A stretch of DNA of 64,000 nucleotides from NCBI GenBank assembly GCA_002898215.1, contig BEIF01000002.1, forward strand, positions 124,001 through 188,000. Reading direction: 5' to 3'. The DNA is from a bacterium HR29 (GTDB taxonomy: Bacteria; Chloroflexota; Dehalococcoidia; Tepidiformales; Tepidiformaceae). Of this stretch, positions 34,322-41,980 are shown piece by piece. The notes beneath the pieces are model-generated. The model was not told where the DNA came from and ran no database searches. It worked only from the letters and a program-made list of their open reading frames with translations. Made by a program: the position numbers and the translations under genes. Position 1 is the stretch's first letter; every line of letters starts with the position of its first letter.

Positions 34322-35380
34322 TCACTCCACCAGCCGGATGGCCCATGCATCGCCGGAAGCGGCGTTGTACTCCGCGTTCGGCAGCTCGCTGACGAACTGG
34401 ACGAACTCGACGCGCACGGCCGAGTTCGTCCCCGAGCCCGGCACGTCCGAGCGCAAGTAGAGGAAAGCGAAGCCGATCACCGTCGACTTCGATGGGTTCT
34501 GGATGCGATCCACCACGGGAACGATGAGGATGCGGGGGCTTCTCTCGCATCCGGGGCGGATGGACACCGTCCCGTCCGGGTTGTCGACGAGCACCTGGCC
34601 CCGCTCGTTCCCAGGGCAGCCGGGGGGAGGCGGCTGGGAGAGCCGCCAGTTCACTGCCTGCTGGGTCGGGCCACTCATGTTGCCGGTTTGGGCGTCGAGC
34701 TGGTCGCCCTTCTTCACGGGACGGCTCGAGCCGTGCTTGATGTCGTCGCGGTATTCGCTCGCTCCCGGACCGTCGATGGCGAGCGCACCGAAGTCGCCCC
34801 CGGAGTTCGTCCCGGCGCCGTACTTGATGGTGCAAACGGTGTTGTGACGGAAGCGGGGCGTTCCGTCCGCGTTCCATCCTTCGAAGCAGGCGTTCTGGAG
34901 CAGCGTGCTGGTCGGGTCGTTGCTGGCGATAAACCCCCACGGCATGACCCCTGTTCCGCCGCTGTAGTAGCCGATTCGTGCCGTGGCCCGCGCTCGGACC
35001 GTGGCCTGCGAAGTGCCGAGGAGGTGGAGGAAGGCGTAGCGCACCGGCCGGGCCACTTCGACGGTCACCGTGTCGTTCGGGTTGTACGTCTGCGAGAAGG
35101 TGACGGTCACGGTGACGTTGCTCCCGGCGTTCTCGCGCGCGTACTGTTCCGCGATCGTCCGCGCGGACCAGGGATGTGCGGGGAGCTCCTGGGCGGCGGC
35201 GAAGGCGGCCGCGTCCGCGGCTTTCTGGAGGTCGGTTCGGGTAACGACGAGCTGACCGACATCGACCGAGAGCGCCAGGAGCCCGACGATCACCGCGGCA
35301 CCCCCGGCGAAGATCGCGAGCGCCTGCCCCGCCTCGCAGGGTACGTCGCGCAGCCAGCCGAGCCATCCCCAGCTTCGCAT
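34322..35380 (-). CDS. TadG-like pilus assembly / secreted protein
   Basis: 352 residues. Residues 16-60 carry the TadE/TadG signature: EAGQALAIFAGGAAVIVGLLALSVDVGQLVVTR-type hydrophobic segment followed by DLQKAADAAAFAAAQEL. The rest is an extracytoplasmic domain with few Cys and strand-like repeats. TadG proteins are minor parts of Flp/Tad pilus systems, but no other tad gene is in the window. GGAGG precedes ATG 35380. Divergent from the first ECF sigma factor, so it may be a target of that circuit. Confidence 0.8.
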   Translation of the reverse strand: MRSWGWLGWLRDVPCEAGQALAIFAGGAAVIVGLLALSVDVGQLVVTRTDLQKAADAAAFAAAQELPAHPWSARTIAEQYARENAGSNVTVTVTFSQTYNPNDTVTVEVARPVRYAFLHLLGTSQATVRARATARIGYYSGGTGVMPWGFIASNDPTSTLLQNACFEGWNADGTPRFRHNTVCTIKYGAGTNSGGDFGALAIDGPGASEYRDDIKHGSSRPVKKGDQLDAQTGNMSGPTQQAVNWRLSQPPPPGCPGNERGQVLVDNPDGTVSIRPGCERSPRILIVPVVDRIQNPSKSTVIGFAFLYLRSDVPGSGTNSAVRVEFVQFVSELPNAEYNAASGDAWAIRLVE

Positions 35381-35568: not shown

Positions 35569-35606
35569 GTCTCAAATAGAGACCCAGTCCTGCCCGGGTG
35601 TAGAGT
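35569..35606 (+). promoter_or_regulatory. inverted repeat and -10 box of first ECF sigma gene
   Basis: GTCTC-AAATA-GAGAC (35569-35583) lies in the -35 region 17 nt before the TAGAGT box (35601-35606). GTG 35614 follows that box by 7 nt. Could be an operator for an unknown regulator. Confidence 0.45.
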
Positions 35607-35613
35607 GAGGAGC

Positions 35614-36204
35614 GTGGAGGAAGCGTACCAGCTCGGCGGCGAGACGCTCGAGGGCGTCTCCCGTGACAGCGATGACCTCGATGAACTCGCTGCCCGGGTC
35701 GCCTCTGGCGATCGAGCGGCATTCGACGATCTGTACACTCGAACGGTCGACGAGGTGTACGCATTCGTGCGGGGCCAATGCCGGAACGATGCCGAGGCTG
35801 AGGACATCATTGCCAACGTTTTCCTGAAGGTTTGGCGCTCGGCTCGAAGCTATCGGGTCGGTTCGGGCCAGTTCCGCCGCTGGCTGTTCGCCATCGCTCG
35901 GAACGAAGTGAAGCGGGCCTGGGCCCAGCGGAAGCGCGAGGCGGCCCCCCTACCGGAAGAGATCGCGGAAGCGGAGGCGAATCGACCTGGGCTCGATATC
36001 CCCACCCGCGACTTACTTCACCGGGCGATGCTCGTCCTCACCCCGGAGCAGCGCGACGTGGTGGTTCTGCGTTACTACGGCGGGAAGTCCCACCAGGAAA
36101 TAGCCGCTATTCTCGGCAAGCGGGAGGGCGCGGTGCGGGCGTTGCTCCTGCGAGCCCTCCGAAAGATGCGAAAGGCGATCGACGATGCTGCGGGCGCGCG
36201 GTGA
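35614..36204 (+). CDS. ECF sigma factor (first)
   Basis: 196 residues (a GTG three codons earlier at 35605 lies inside the -10 box and is less likely). Sigma-2: FDDLYTRTVDEVYAFVRGQCRNDAEAEDIIANVFLKVWR and the DNA-melting region; sigma-4: LTPEQRDVVVLRYYGGKSHQEIAAILGKREGAVRALLLRAL. It overlaps the FecR-like repeat protein gene by 20 bp, the usual sigma/anti-sigma arrangement. Confidence 0.92.
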   Translation: MEEAYQLGGETLEGVSRDSDDLDELAARVASGDRAAFDDLYTRTVDEVYAFVRGQCRNDAEAEDIIANVFLKVWRSARSYRVGSGQFRRWLFAIARNEVKRAWAQRKREAAPLPEEIAEAEANRPGLDIPTRDLLHRAMLVLTPEQRDVVVLRYYGGKSHQEIAAILGKREGAVRALLLRALRKMRKAIDDAAGAR

Positions 36205-37729
36205 CCGCTGGGAGTACCTCGCCATCGAGGTGGCGCTGCGCCGGGCAGCTCCTCCTCCCCTCACGCCGGAGCAGCGGGAGCGGATTCGCGCTCGGATCAT
36301 GGCCCAGCTGGGCGCCCAGGAGCCGGCTCGGCCGCCGCTCGTCTTCCGCACCCGCTGGGTGGCGGTGCCGGTCGGTGCGGGGCTCGCGGCCACCATCGTC
36401 GCCGGTGTGCGGCTCGTCGCCCACAGGTTCTCGGGGGACGAGGGTGGTGCAGGTGTGGTCGTCGGCGGTCGGCTCCTGACCGGCGGACGAACCGTCGACG
36501 AGCTGGGAACGGGCCAGGTGGCTGTCGCCCGCACAGACACGACGGTCCTCTTCCCCGAGGCCGGGGCCCGCTTCGACGCCGTCGCTGGCAGCCGGTTCGA
36601 GCTCCTCGCTGACAGCGGAGAGCTCGTTTTCCGGCTCGAGACGGGACGGTTCTCCGTGGCCAGCGAGGCCACCCCGGTCCGCCTGCAGGGCCAGGGTTGG
36701 AGCGCGGTTTTCGCAACCGGCGGCGTCGGCTCGGCAAACGTCGCCTCCGACCGAGCTCGGTTCACGGTGTACGAAGGTGCGCTCACGGTGAGCGTGGGCG
36801 GCGCGATCTGCACGGCGGGGGCCGGCGATACGGTGATCGTCGAGGGGAACACTTGCCTGGTAATACCGGGGAACCCCGGCGGGAATCCGGCCGCGCCCGG
36901 CCAGGGGGGTGCGAATCCTGGGCAGGGCGGGAGCGCTGGCGGGAACCCGGCCGCGCCCGGTCAGGGCGGTGCGAACCCCGGCCAGGGCGGGAACGCCGGC
37001 GGGAATCCGGCCGCGCCCGGTCAGGGGGGTGCGAACCCCGGCCAGGGCGGGAACGCCGGCGGGAATCCGGCTGCGCCCGGCCAGGGGGGTGCGAATCCTG
37101 GGCAGGGCGGGAACGCCGGCGGGAATCCGGCCGCGCCCGGCCAGGGCGGAGCGAATCCCGGGGAGGGCGGGAACCCCGGCGGGAATCCGGCTGCGCCCGG
37201 CCAGGGGGGTGCGAACCCCGGCCAGGGCGGGAACGCTGGCGGGGATCCGGCTGCGCCCGGCCAGGGGGGTGCGAACCCCGGCCAGGGCGGGAACGCCGGC
37301 GGGAACCCGGCCGCGCCCGGCCAGGGGGGTGCGAACCCCGGCCAGGGCGGGAACGCCGGCGGGAATCCGGCTGCGCCCGGCCAGGGGGGTGCGAATCCTG
37401 GGCAGGGCGGGAACGCCGGCGGGAATCCGGCCGCGCCCGGCCAGGGCGGAGCGAATCCCGGGGAGGGCGGGAACCCCGGCGGGAATCCGGCTGCGCCCGG
37501 CCAGGGGGGTGCGAACCCCGGCCAGGGCGGGAACGCTGGCGGGGATCCGGCTGCGCCCGGCCAGGGGGGTGCGAACCCCGGCCAGGGCGGGAACGCCGGC
37601 GGGAACCCGGCCGCGCCCGGCCAGGGGGGTGCGAACCCCGGCCAGGGCGGGAGCGCTGGCGGGAATCCGGCTGCGCCCGGTCAGGGCGGAGCGAATCCCG
37701 GGCAAGGGAGCGCTGGTCGCGGGCGTTGA
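36185..37729 (+). CDS. FecR-like membrane protein with fourteen 20-residue repeats
   Basis: 514 residues. N-terminal cytosolic segment of about 55 residues, one transmembrane helix (about 57-75), a FecR-like beta domain (about 95-220: FPEAGARFDAVAGSRFELLADSGELVFRLETGRFSV..., VYEGALTVSVGGAI) and then 14 near-identical 20-residue repeats of the form GGNPAAPGQGGANPGQGGNA to the C-terminus. The overlap with the sigma factor gene suggests an anti-sigma role, with the repeat region outside the cell. Length of the repeat region is probably variable between strains. Two other frames are open across the repeats because a 60-bp GC-rich unit has no stops; they are not genes. Confidence 0.85.
   Translation: MLRARGDRWEYLAIEVALRRAAPPPLTPEQRERIRARIMAQLGAQEPARPPLVFRTRWVAVPVGAGLAATIVAGVRLVAHRFSGDEGGAGVVVGGRLLTGGRTVDELGTGQVAVARTDTTVLFPEAGARFDAVAGSRFELLADSGELVFRLETGRFSVASEATPVRLQGQGWSAVFATGGVGSANVASDRARFTVYEGALTVSVGGAICTAGAGDTVIVEGNTCLVIPGNPGGNPAAPGQGGANPGQGGSAGGNPAAPGQGGANPGQGGNAGGNPAAPGQGGANPGQGGNAGGNPAAPGQGGANPGQGGNAGGNPAAPGQGGANPGEGGNPGGNPAAPGQGGANPGQGGNAGGDPAAPGQGGANPGQGGNAGGNPAAPGQGGANPGQGGNAGGNPAAPGQGGANPGQGGNAGGNPAAPGQGGANPGEGGNPGGNPAAPGQGGANPGQGGNAGGDPAAPGQGGANPGQGGNAGGNPAAPGQGGANPGQGGSAGGNPAAPGQGGANPGQGSAGRGR
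36878..37717 (+). repeat. 60-bp tandem repeat array, 14 units
   Basis: Unit length is exactly 60 bp, in frame, encoding 20 residues; the last unit is degenerate. Bases 37022-37351 are identical to 37322-37651, a 300-bp (five-unit) higher-order duplication inside the array. Confidence 0.97.
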
Positions 37730-37748
37730 AGGCCCGTGGGCGAGCATT

Positions 37749-37772
37749 AACCTTTCGCTGGGCTGCGGCGTT
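37749..37772 (+). promoter_or_regulatory. candidate ECF-type promoter of the second sigma gene
   Basis: AACC (37749-37752) and CGTT (37769-37772) separated by 16 nt, the layout of many ECF promoters (-35 with AAC, -10 with CGT). Start codon GTG is 84 nt on. A TATCCT at 37800-37805 is an alternative housekeeping -10. Confidence 0.3.
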
Positions 37773-37856
37773 ATCGCTAGTGCGGAGAGCGGCCGACGCC
37801 TATCCTGCGAAAGGAGGGACTTCGGACAAGGACGGGCACCGCCCCAGGGGGCTCGC

Positions 37857-38426
37857 GTGGCGGAGACGACGCTGAACGGCCTCCGCCCGGAATTCGACGA
37901 GCGGGCGCTGGTCGAACGGGCGAAGGAAGGGGACCAGCAGGCGCTGGCCGAACTGTACGAACGGTACCTCCCCCGCGTTTACCGCTACGTCGCTGCCCGC
38001 GTACCCACTCCGGAAGACGCCGAGGACCTCACCGCCACCGTCTTCCTCAAGATGGTGGACTCCCTCGGTCGATACGAGTGGCGAGGGCTCCCCTTCGGAG
38101 CGTGGCTCTTTCGCATCGCCCGCAACGAAATCGTCAGCTTCGTCCGCCGGGCACGGTATCGCGACGCCGACCCCTTGGATGAAGCCCTGCGGGACCCGGC
38201 ACCGAGCGCGGCCCGCACCCTCGAGGACGCCGAACGGCTCGCGGCGATGCGGAATGCAGTGGCGCAGTTGCCTCAGGCCCAGCGCGAAGTGATCGAGTTA
38301 CGCTTCTTCGCCGGGCTGAGCGTTGCCGATACGGCCAAGGTGCTCGGGAAGTCCGAAACGAACGTGAAGGTCCTCCAGCACAAGGGCGTCGCCAAACTCC
38401 AGCGGCTGTTGGCCGAATGGGAGTAG
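37857..38426 (+). CDS. ECF sigma factor (second)
   Basis: 189 residues. Sigma-2: LAELYERYLPRVYRYVAARVPTPEDAEDLTATVFLKMV and WLFRIARNEIVSFVRR; sigma-4: LPQAQREVIELRFFAGLSVADTAKVLGKSETNVKVLQHKGV. GTG 37857 is the only start codon near the domain boundary. Its frame is open far upstream through the repeats, but that part is not coding. It overlaps the DUF5667 gene by 10 bp. Confidence 0.93.
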   Translation: MAETTLNGLRPEFDERALVERAKEGDQQALAELYERYLPRVYRYVAARVPTPEDAEDLTATVFLKMVDSLGRYEWRGLPFGAWLFRIARNEIVSFVRRARYRDADPLDEALRDPAPSAARTLEDAERLAAMRNAVAQLPQAQREVIELRFFAGLSVADTAKVLGKSETNVKVLQHKGVAKLQRLLAEWE

Positions 38427-39358
38427 TGGCGATGGGTCTCTTCCGCAAGCGGGACGCGCGGGCGGAGATGTTCGCCGAGGTCCTCGCTCTCATCGAGGAG
38501 GGCCTGGAGCCGGACTTCGTTCTGCCGCTCTACGGAGAGGATGCAGCCTGGCTTCGTCCGATGGTCGAGGTTGCCCGCGCCGCCCGCGCTGCCGCGGCGC
38601 GCGAAGAGCCCAGCTTCTACTTCGAGGCGACGCTGAAGCGCCAGGTGTTGGCTGCTTCCGTCCAGCGTGCCCGGGCGGCGGAGCGTGCCCCGGCGCGGGC
38701 CCCTTGGCGAACGGCTCTCGCGGCCTCCGCCGTGCTCACGGCGGCCGCCGGGCTCGGCACCGTGATGGTCGGTGCGGTCACCGCCGATTCCGCCCTTCCT
38801 GGCGATTGGAACTACGCCTTCAAGCTCGCCAACGAGCGGGTGGCCTACAGCCTCTCCCGCGGCGAAGGGCGTATCGGCGTCCAACTCGACGTGACCTACG
38901 CCCGCCTGCGCGAAGCTCAGGAGCTCGCCGAGCAGGGACGGGCCTCCGAAGAGGTGCTCCAGCGCATCGAGAGCGAGGCCGAGCAGCTCGGCGAGCTGCT
39001 CGAATCGAGGCCGATCGACGACGCTCAGAAGGCGCGGCTCGCGGCGCTCTCCGAGACGGCGGAGGAGGTGGCGAAGTCGCTCACCGCCTCCCGGCCGGAG
39101 CTCGCTCCGGCGGTCGAGCGGACGGTCAAGAAGGTGAACGAGGCTGTCGCCGCCGGCCTGGGCTCGTCGACGCCGGTCGTGACCCCCTCGGTCACTCCCT
39201 CGCCGTCGCCCTCCCCCAGCCCGACGCCGACTCTCACGCCAACTCCGTCCGCCACGCCGACACCGGAGCCCGTCTCGACGCAACCCCCGGTGGAGGTTAC
39301 CGGCAGCACAGCCACGAGCGAGGCGCCGGCGCCCCAGTCCGAGAGCGAAGAGCCGTAG
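38417..39358 (+). CDS. DUF5667 membrane protein, probable sigma regulator
   Basis: 313 residues. Cytosolic N-terminus, one hydrophobic segment (about 96-118), then the DUF5667 helical region (ALPGDWNYAFKLANERVAYSL... and long charged helices to about 245) and a Pro/Ser/Thr-rich C-terminal tail of about 65 residues that would face outwards. DUF5667 genes commonly follow ECF sigma genes in high-GC bacteria, so an anti-sigma or sensor role is likely. Overlaps the sigma gene by 10 bp. Confidence 0.85.
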   Translation: MGVVAMGLFRKRDARAEMFAEVLALIEEGLEPDFVLPLYGEDAAWLRPMVEVARAARAAAAREEPSFYFEATLKRQVLAASVQRARAAERAPARAPWRTALAASAVLTAAAGLGTVMVGAVTADSALPGDWNYAFKLANERVAYSLSRGEGRIGVQLDVTYARLREAQELAEQGRASEEVLQRIESEAEQLGELLESRPIDDAQKARLAALSETAEEVAKSLTASRPELAPAVERTVKKVNEAVAAGLGSSTPVVTPSVTPSPSPSPSPTPTLTPTPSATPTPEPVSTQPPVEVTGSTATSEAPAPQSESEEP

Positions 39359-39772: not shown

Positions 39773-41980
39773 TCAGTTCATGACGAGCGTCACGGGCTCG
39801 GTGACGTGGATCCAGTACACGCGGAGCTTCAGAAGCGCCTCGAAATCGTTGAGGAAGCGGCTCCGCCCCGGCACGTAGGACTTCCACTCGCCGGTTTGGT
39901 TATCCCAGTACAGCACCTGAGTGAACTTCCCGGCGATGGGCTGGAGCGCCTCGGCGATACGCTTGCTCGTCCCGGTGTAGACGAAGTTGTTCCAGCCCGG
40001 TGCAAGCTGGACCGTTCGTCCCGGCGGTGGATTCGGGTTGGGTACTTCGATCGTCGTGGGCGTCGCCGCCTCGACCCAGTACGCATCGTACCGGCGAACG
40101 GTCTGCCAGGAAGCGGTGTAGGCGGGTGCGTCGCGGAAGGCTCGCCGGAAGATGCCCATCCCGCCCAGGCCGTTCGGGACCGAGGGGTCCCAGGCGTACG
40201 CCGCCGTCCAGTCTTCGGGCAGGTACGCAAGGACGTCCGGAGCGGGTCCCTCCTCCGTGAGGTGGGCGATGTTGGCCCAGCTTCCGCCAACGAACTGCGT
40301 CACCGTGGGACCGGGGTCGGGCGTCATGATGCTGATGTCCCGGCCGACCAGGCCGAGGTCGGCGTCGGGCCCTGGCCAGGGAAAGGATGGGACCGCCGGC
40401 TGTCCCTGCATCGAGAGCGTGACCGTGCGCCCCGGCGCACCGCAGCCGGTTCGTTCGGCGTCGGCGGCGATGCGGATGATGTACGGGCTGGCCGGGCCGA
40501 AGGCGAAGGTGCCGCCCACGCCGCATTCGATGCCGCCGATGCGCGCCCGCACCTCGACGCCGGGGCCGATGTCCTTCCAGTCGAGGAACGCGTTCCCTGT
40601 CACCAGGGCCGGTACCTTGGGGACGGCGCGACCGACGTGGACGATCCCCGAGCCGGCCCAGTTCCCACCGTGGGGGGCCGGCGGAGCGGGCGAGGCCGTG
40701 GAGCGGAGCAGGTCGATGTATTCGCCCGCCGAAAGGCGCGTGTTGCGCGAAATGACGAGCGCGAAGGCGCCGCTCACCACCGGCGCTGCGAAGCTCGTCC
40801 CTCGCTGGGCGATGCGGTACGGCTGCGCGCCACCGAGGTCGGTACGAACGGTCGAGGCGAGCCCGTCGCCCGGTGCGGCGAAGTCGATTGCCGGGCCCCA
40901 AGCGGAATAGGTTGCCCAGCCCCCGGTCGAGGTGTCCATCGCGCCGACCGCAATCACGTTCGGGTACTGGGTGTAGGCTGCTGGGTACCCCGGAGCGGGG
41001 TTCGGGGTCGACCCCCAATTGCCCGCAGCCGCCACGAGGATCACTCCTCGCTGCTGGGCGAACTCGATGGCTGCCCGCAAGGCCGGCGTGTCGGCGGTGG
41101 TATCGCCAGGAGCGCTCGAAAGGCTGAGGTTGATGACCCGTGCACCCATGCGGACGGCGTAGTCGATGCCCTGGGCCACGTTGAACATGCTCCCCGACGG
41201 CGTTCCGGACGCTCCGCCACAGTCCAGCACCTTGACGATCATCAGCCGGACGTTCCAGGCGAGCCCGGTCACGCCGATGCCGTTGTTCCCGGCCGCGCCG
41301 ATGATCCCCGCAACCAGCGTTCCGTGCGAATGCGAAACCGAGGTGAGGGTGCCGTTGTCGTCGGCCACGTTGCCGGTGCGCAGCGAGCTTGTATAGCCGC
41401 AGGCGAGGGCGTTGCTCGGGGTGACGTCGACGAAGCGGCAGCCGTTGACGTCGTCGATGCAGCCGTTGCCGTCGTTGTCGAGGCCGTCCCCCGGGATCTC
41501 CAGGGGGTTCCGCCAGAGGCGCGGTGCGAGGTCGGGGTGGGTGAGGTCGGCCCCGGTATCGAGCACCGCCACCACCACCTCCTCGCGGCCGGTGCTCAGG
41601 TCCCAGGCCTGGGCTGCGCCGACGATGCCGAGGGTGGACGCCTGGTTCGCGGGGTAGAGGGGGTCATTGGGGATGCGGGCGGCGTACACCGGCGCATCGG
41701 GCACGGCCGAACGGATACCCGGGCGACGGGCGAGCGCGCGAGCGTACTCCTCGGCCGTCATCCCGGGAGGGACCGGGAGTTTCGCGAACCCCCGCTCTTC
41801 CAGCGGGAGGGGGTCGGCCTCGGCGGCGTACGCTGCCGCCCGTTCGTACTCCACCACCACGTAGGCGGAGGGAGGCGCCGACGGCGGGCCCTCGCCGGCG
41901 GCGGGCCTGGGGCCACCGCCCCCGGCGACCCATACCCCCACCAGGACCGCTGCGACGAGCCGGGCGAAGCGGACGGTCAC
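39773..41980 (-). CDS. secreted S8 family serine peptidase (subtilase)
   Basis: 735 residues with an N-terminal signal sequence (hydrophobic to about residue 20), an inhibitor-like propeptide (about 35-100) and a subtilisin domain. Catalytic Asp in VAVLDTGADLTHPDL, His in SHSHGTLVAGII, the Asn region AAAGNWGS and Ser in GTSFAAPVVSG are all present. The last 270 residues form extra beta-rich domains. GTG start. It should digest extracellular or surface proteins; position beside the sigma/DUF5667 genes allows regulation by them, not shown. Confidence 0.94.
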   Translation of the reverse strand: MTVRFARLVAAVLVGVWVAGGGGPRPAAGEGPPSAPPSAYVVVEYERAAAYAAEADPLPLEERGFAKLPVPPGMTAEEYARALARRPGIRSAVPDAPVYAARIPNDPLYPANQASTLGIVGAAQAWDLSTGREEVVVAVLDTGADLTHPDLAPRLWRNPLEIPGDGLDNDGNGCIDDVNGCRFVDVTPSNALACGYTSSLRTGNVADDNGTLTSVSHSHGTLVAGIIGAAGNNGIGVTGLAWNVRLMIVKVLDCGGASGTPSGSMFNVAQGIDYAVRMGARVINLSLSSAPGDTTADTPALRAAIEFAQQRGVILVAAAGNWGSTPNPAPGYPAAYTQYPNVIAVGAMDTSTGGWATYSAWGPAIDFAAPGDGLASTVRTDLGGAQPYRIAQRGTSFAAPVVSGAFALVISRNTRLSAGEYIDLLRSTASPAPPAPHGGNWAGSGIVHVGRAVPKVPALVTGNAFLDWKDIGPGVEVRARIGGIECGVGGTFAFGPASPYIIRIAADAERTGCGAPGRTVTLSMQGQPAVPSFPWPGPDADLGLVGRDISIMTPDPGPTVTQFVGGSWANIAHLTEEGPAPDVLAYLPEDWTAAYAWDPSVPNGLGGMGIFRRAFRDAPAYTASWQTVRRYDAYWVEAATPTTIEVPNPNPPPGRTVQLAPGWNNFVYTGTSKRIAEALQPIAGKFTQVLYWDNQTGEWKSYVPGRSRFLNDFEALLKLRVYWIHVTEPVTLVMN

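Follow-up and report, generated by a model that had tools for sequence, protein, structure and literature searches.

The central finding of this work is a two-gene module at 35605-37729 of the window (the whole stretch of 64,000 nucleotides that was analysed), in which a gene for an ECF sigma factor overlaps a gene for a putative single-pass membrane partner that is predicted to carry a FecR-type fold and, beyond it, a long disordered tail. We favour reading this pair as an ECF sigma factor and its anti-sigma factor that work as a stand-alone module, with a disordered tail that reads the state of the envelope, and consider that this has about an even chance of being correct. The module is laid out as follows.

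35605-36204, forward strand: ECF sigma factor, 199 aa, GTG start as called; Sigma70_r2, Sigma70_r4_2 and TIGR02937
36185-36204, forward strand: overlap of the sigma and anti-sigma candidate genes, 20 nt
36185-37729, forward strand: FecR-fold single-pass membrane protein, anti-sigma candidate, 514 aa
36185-36352, forward strand: residues 1-56 of the partner, predicted cytoplasmic sigma-binding segment with two helices (alignment A1, AlphaFold2)
36353-36430, forward strand: predicted transmembrane helix, residues 57-82, RWVAVPVGAGLAATIVAGVRLVAHRF (sequence, AlphaFold2 models)
36449-36868, forward strand: all-beta FecR-fold (juxtamembrane) domain, residues 89-228 (AlphaFold2, Foldseek, hhalign)
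36869-37729, forward strand: disordered Gly/Ala/Pro/Asn/Gln tail, 14 x 20 residues, unit GNPAAPGQGGANPGQGGNAG (TRF, AlphaFold2, composition)
37060-37659, forward strand: higher-order repeat, a 5-unit (300-bp) block that is doubled
37706-37729, forward strand: basic C-terminal tip GSAGRGR and stop

The sigma ORF matches Sigma70_r2 (E 8.8e-15) and Sigma70_r4_2 (E 1.6e-16) in Pfam, each above the cut-off, as well as TIGR02937 in NCBIfam (97 bits), and with region 2 and region 4 alone in about 200 residues it belongs to the ECF group. An earlier note on this DNA had placed an ORF for a sigma-linked membrane protein at 36185-37729 on the forward strand, and we confirm both that ORF, which encodes 514 residues, and its overlap with the ECF sigma ORF. 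The overlap measures 20 nt in the window and 14 nt in all seven homologues, and it likely reflects translational coupling of the two genes. When the regions upstream of the sigma genes at eight loci were compared, no ECF-type promoter common to the window and its relatives was found, and so autoregulation by the sigma factor is unsupported. Some k-mers are common to these upstream regions because 5/8 homologues share a conserved divergent gene there, and they were rejected as a promoter for that reason. In these five relatives (L102-L106) the module is divergent from a gene beginning MPEQYAA..., and the short intergenic region between the two has a conserved GAATA-CGTA-GAT-like motif, which the window does not have.

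The surroundings of the module in the window hold several further genes. Immediately upstream of the sigma gene, and divergent from it, lies a gene for a TadE/TadG-like Flp-pilus-assembly protein (34322-35380, reverse strand; Pfam Tad, 5e-10), which is not conserved beside the module in relatives. Directly downstream, at 37857-39358 on the forward strand, there is a second ECF sigma gene together with an overlapping gene for a DUF5667 membrane protein. This second sigma factor is BldN-like by NCBIfam ranking, at a score under the NCBIfam cut-off, and the DUF5667 protein likewise ends in a low-complexity Pro/Ser/Thr tail, which places two tailed sigma-linked membrane proteins side by side. Convergent with this second module is a gene for a 735-aa subtilase (39773-41980, reverse strand; Peptidase_S8, 7.7e-48), conceivably an extracellular protease. 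No plasmid match and no Rfam match was obtained.

A search of 119 relatives returned seven homologues of the partner, all within its own family, and an order-wide profile search placed the partner in 8/38 genomes, the genome studied here included. The sigma search at a strict cut-off recovered the identical eight of these 38 genomes and none besides. The two genes are adjacent and overlapping in 8/8, which means that the gene linkage to an ECF sigma factor, a feature of the FecR family, is found in every case. No other gene of the window neighbourhood is conserved beside the module in the relatives. Given that the pair is confined to the same eight genomes, always overlaps and keeps no other neighbour, it is, on this comparative evidence, an old and co-inherited two-gene module, and the sigma linkage claimed in the earlier note is strongly supported by the perfect co-occurrence and the conserved overlap. 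The sigma alignment was also used to search named genomes. The six best matches come from Chloroflexota/Dehalococcoidia/Thermoflexaceae MAGs, and in all six the partner gene lies directly downstream of the sigma gene; behind the seventh match (38% identity) lies a gene for another protein.

Most of the family's invariant residues lie in residues 1-56 of the partner (M1, L2, R3, D7, E10, E15, L18, L26, R35, R37, I38, L42, G43 and Q45 are invariant in alignment A1). AlphaFold2 models helices here at about residues 8-20 and 28-41, followed by a helix long enough to span the membrane (about residues 63-82), in both cases with low to moderate confidence. No known anti-sigma N-domain matched residues 1-56, Pfam and NCBIfam assigned no family to residues 1-232, and the RsgI N-terminal and juxtamembrane domains gave no Pfam match in the partner even with E allowed to rise to 1. 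The partner's Pfam matches to Cupin_2 and YmiA-like families were weak, fell under the cut-off and were set aside.

The folded part of the partner was modelled by AlphaFold2 with an eight-sequence alignment, and residues 89-228 were returned as an all-beta domain with a pLDDT of about 92. When this model was compared with the PDB by Foldseek, all four matches below E 0.001 were FecR-family anti-sigma structures (4m0h_A, E 3.2e-6; 6ovk_R, E 3.9e-6; 4m0h_B and 4m0n, E 5.1e-6), representing Parabacteroides BDI_1681 (4m0h A/B and 4m0n) and the PupR periplasmic domain (6ovk), and the next, unrelated match stood at E 0.027. With 11-14% identity and a TM-score of about 0.4 over the whole model, the likeness is one of fold. 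At the level of profiles, hhalign aligned the eight-sequence profile to that of 13 Chloroflexota FecR domains with a probability of 88% and E 3.5e-6. The A1 profile also weakly picked up two loci in a 400-genome search of the phylum (G232 C12 and G227 C2), both of which were found at the identical place by a Pfam FecR search, and when it was run on the ORFs around 30 Pfam-found FecR loci and its own three phylum hits, FecR ORFs ranked high. A weak phylum match, L020, overlies an unrelated protein and was ignored. Searches of solved structures by sequence gave poor matches (OspA variants), and by profile an FtsZ match (E 0.0016); both conflict with the outcome of the fold comparison and were discounted.

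Since FecR-family structures alone account for the significant Foldseek matches, the outer domain of the partner is, in the model, of FecR-type fold, and the FecR-like call of the earlier note is right at that level. The structure prediction that the note had proposed thus returned a FecR fold, with a well-modelled outer domain and four FecR-family matches, and the profile comparison agrees with it. The Pfam family itself is not matched: PF04773 gave no match above the cut-off in the window protein or its seven homologues, and none anywhere in the genome.

Beyond the FecR-fold domain, the fourteen near-identical repeats of 20 residues described in the earlier note are borne out by TRF and by translation, as 13 near-perfect 20-mers followed by a shortened fourteenth, all in frame. 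The array (36869-37701; period 60, 13.9 copies, 91% matches, no indels, score 1337) is the sole strong tandem array found by TRF in the window, and no other occurrence of its 60-bp DNA unit was found in the genome or the order. Its best self-shift is 300 bp, with block 37060-37359 identical to block 37360-37659 at 298/300 positions. This higher-order structure was absent from the earlier note, and the near identity of the two copies argues that the duplication is recent. Variable columns of the array are distributed 3/1/9 over the three codon positions, and distinct single-base codon variants number 9 synonymous to 4 non-synonymous, where 50 and 130, respectively, are possible. Because this variation is mostly synonymous it is indicative of constraint on the annotated protein frame, bearing in mind that the units are not independent. 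Alternative frames are open across the array because the repeat has no stops (36909-38426 on the forward strand and 36107-37747 on the reverse). They were rejected, since the variation fits the annotated frame best; the next-best frame, on the reverse strand, has 7 synonymous to 6 non-synonymous variants as against 9 to 4.

In the full-length AlphaFold2 model residues 231-514 have a pLDDT of 32-47 and no secondary structure, and the window tail is predicted to be fully disordered. The partner accordingly has, in this model, the disordered outer region that is a feature of RsgI, its extracellular side following from the putative topology. A polyglycine-II or collagen-like fold of the tail was also considered and rejected, with Gly not at every third position and AlphaFold2 returning no structure. 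The GSAGRGR tip holds the only K/R residues of the window repeat tail.

All eight partners have a low-complexity Gly/Pro/Ala/Asn/Ser tail past the FecR domain, so that the layout of sigma factor, FecR domain and repeat, whose absence among homologues would have spoken against the earlier note, is found in 8/8, with regular repeats in only some of the tails. The tail is 288 aa long in the window and 237-323 aa in the other complete homologues, and at least 114 aa in L003, where the contig ends inside it. Across the eight tails hydrophobics make up 0-9% and Cys is absent, Gly and Pro dominating together with Ala and Asn or Ser. The units themselves are unrelated (NAPGQADPPGNSG in L004, GGENPGNGPPSDPPGQ in L005 and SAPGLAGDDGDAPGSSG in L009), and the tails of L006-L008 consist of irregular Pro/Gly/Asn runs. 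That every relative found has a tail, in different repeats, suggests that what the switch would need is a floppy outer tail rather than a fixed sequence. A basic tip carrying 1-4 basic residues ends each of the seven complete tails (the window and six homologues). These tips hold 18 K/R in 84 residues, which none of 20000 permutations reached, although this overstates the enrichment because ancestry is shared and a C-terminal K/R bias is possibly general.

As a control we considered the Pfam-FecR proteins of the phylum, which are present in 106/301 genomes. Among the 30 loci looked at, the majority carry folded C-terminal modules and acidic low-complexity tails occur at three, and a sigma gene was nearby at only 2/33 of the Chloroflexota FecR loci examined, in the search used. 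Given that most of the Pfam-FecR proteins sampled are without a long Gly/Pro tail, this feature belongs to the sigma-linked family and not to the FecR proteins of the phylum generally. Separately, the proteins at L124, L126 and L128 carry Glu/Thr/Pro-rich acidic tails of 90-120 residues, so that FecR domains may have gained disordered tails there independently.

How, then, might such a module receive its signal? The input route known from FecR is missing here, since the 97%-complete genome has no PF00593 match that would represent a TonB-dependent receptor, and no STN domain was matched by Pfam in the partner, where the disordered repeat occupies that region. The genome does have four strong matches to PBP transpeptidases, as well as M50 site-2-protease homologues. 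Taken together with the precedent of RsgI and RsdA, these observations lead us to favour an envelope-reading tail. The partner would bind and inhibit its cognate sigma factor, the N-terminal segment holding it at the membrane, and the putative topology would put the tail outside the cell. Sitting immediately outside the membrane, the FecR domain would act as a gate that exposes or hides a cleavage site or conformation. The tail, about 240-320 residues of flexible and inert chain with a basic tip, would reach into or lie against the peptidoglycan or envelope, and by analogy may sense its state. Were the tail to lose its normal contact, or to become crowded, access to the FecR domain or the stability of this domain would change, and regulated intramembrane proteolysis by a site-2 protease would then release the sigma factor. 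Selection would keep the length, flexibility and hydrophobic-poor make-up of the tail and leave its sequence free. This would be the working mode of RsgI on a FecR scaffold, with the tail standing where iron-signalling FecR proteins carry their receptor-docking STN domain. Several points count against parts of this proposal. A freely varying low-complexity tail can equally be neutral, which bears on sensing, and no anti-sigma family was matched by the N-terminal segment, whose model is of only moderate confidence, which bears on sigma binding. The FecR likeness is one of fold, no cleavage motif is conserved, and no promoter common to the window and its relatives was found.

The main rival to an envelope-reading tail is a passive spacer or shield. 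Here the folded FecR domain would be the sensor and the tail a spacer, entropic bristle or protease shield, and the repeat would be a recent in-frame expansion without a sensing role, and we regard this as a distinct possibility, if one that we doubt on balance. Tail sequences and units that differ wholly between relatives speak for such a reading, as do a window array recently enlarged by a 300-bp duplication (298/300) and the lack of any visible binding motif, sortase signal or SLH domain. A low-complexity Pro/Ser/Thr tail is present on the neighbouring sigma-linked DUF5667 protein too, and so tails of this kind may be a general habit of such membrane proteins. What a passive tail accounts for less readily is that 8/8 homologues retain a long and compositionally similar tail whilst most of the phylum's Pfam-FecR proteins sampled lack one, that codon variation in the array is chiefly synonymous, and that a basic tip ends 7/7 complete tails.

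The same tips could be taken to favour a surface tether or adhesin, in which the tail crosses the wall, the basic tip binds an anionic envelope polymer or another cell, and pulling or contact would switch the sigma factor (mechanosensing). The tail would span roughly 70-100 nm if fully extended, it has no cysteine and few hydrophobics, and its Gly/Pro make-up is typical of flexible spacers. The tip, however, amounts to just 1-4 basic residues, no anchor motif accompanies it, and the permutation result (18 K/R in 84, 0/20000) is inflated by shared ancestry and perhaps by a general C-terminal bias, so we give the tether only a slim chance. It seems to us similarly improbable that the partner is not an inhibitor but mainly a positive regulator like E. 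coli FecR, or that the neighbourhood is coincidental. ECF activity depends on the N-terminus of FecR (PMC7406223), and in the window protein the N-terminal segment is short and unlike known anti-sigma domains, both of which would suit a positive regulator. Coincidence is ruled out because the sigma factor and partner occur in the identical 8/38 genomes with overlapping genes.

Returning to the envelope-reading tail, the earlier note saw in this protein a new sensing device, which holds only in part. FecR-fold sigma regulators and disordered-tail anti-sigma factors are both known already, and the latter have been implicated in wall sensing (RsgI and RsdA). To our knowledge it is the combination, a FecR fold with a disordered tail at the place of STN, that is new, and a light search of the literature found no description of it. 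A broader proposal, which we think unlikely but worth setting out, is that in a Chloroflexota clade the FecR scaffold, formerly that of a receptor-docking regulator, became an envelope sensor that works without a receptor and bears an elastic tail, the physical state of which, and not a ligand, sets the sigma factor. If this is true, a fast-evolving Gly/Pro-rich tail with a basic tip stands where STN sits, the relevant physical state would be reach, crowding or tension in the wall, and changes in repeat number would therefore retune the sensor.

The wider question is how the disordered outer regions of anti-sigma factors sense the wall, as has been proposed for Bacillus and corynebacteria. The module would carry the same design into a distant phylum and onto a different scaffold, the FecR fold, and its tails come in at least four unrelated designs of similar length. 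Unrelated tails of similar length may separate what matters (length and flexibility) from sequence, and the repeat-based tails represent a natural series for asking whether tail length tunes a sigma switch. The module also indicates the form that a FecR-type regulator may take where a TonB-dependent receptor is absent.

Among known systems, the closest in layout are PupR, FecR and FoxR, which resemble the partner in having an ECF sigma neighbour, an N-terminal cytoplasmic segment, one membrane helix and, judging from the model, a juxtamembrane all-beta domain of the same fold (6ovk, 4m0h). In PupR the FecR-fold (CJM) domain is followed by STN, and docking of the signalling domain of the TonB-dependent receptor requires both domains (PMC7186176). 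The statement in the earlier note that FecR-type regulators as a rule stop at the FecR domain is therefore not quite right, as the proteobacterial ones have STN there (PMC7186176) and Chloroflexota FecR proteins have many kinds of C-terminal extension. The window partner differs from this group in having a disordered tail in place of STN, in its N-terminal segment, and in coming from a genome with no TonB-dependent transducer to serve as its partner. A Gly-Thr self-cleavage site has been defined in FoxR (PMC11637429). Gly-Thr stands at the corresponding position of alignment A1 in only 3/8 partners (L003, L005 and L009), and no cleavage motif is conserved across the eight. The PF04773 proteins of Chloroflexota (for example L124, L126 and L128) share the phylum and a FecR-type domain, and a few have low-complexity tails, but their C-terminal regions are acidic or folded where those of the window family are rich in Gly, Pro and Asn.

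In the way the outer region may work, the nearer comparisons are with RsgI and RsdA. The disordered outer region of B. subtilis RsgI, the anti-sigma factor of SigI, has been postulated to sense wall integrity, and RsgI is cleaved twice in succession, the site-2 protease being RasP (PMC10128001, PMC10202637). RsgI and, as predicted, the partner are single-pass proteins with a long disordered extracellular region, which in RsgI is implicated in wall sensing. They differ in that the partner has none of the Pfam RsgI domains and a folded outer domain of FecR type, and in that its sigma factor belongs to the ECF group whereas that of RsgI is SigI. RsdA, the anti-sigma factor of corynebacterial SigD, has a disordered outer domain of ~160 residues proposed to read envelope defects (PMC11175481). 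The partner is like it in having a long outer region predicted to be disordered, but the window tail is longer and highly repetitive, and an additional FecR-fold domain is predicted to lie between this tail and the membrane.
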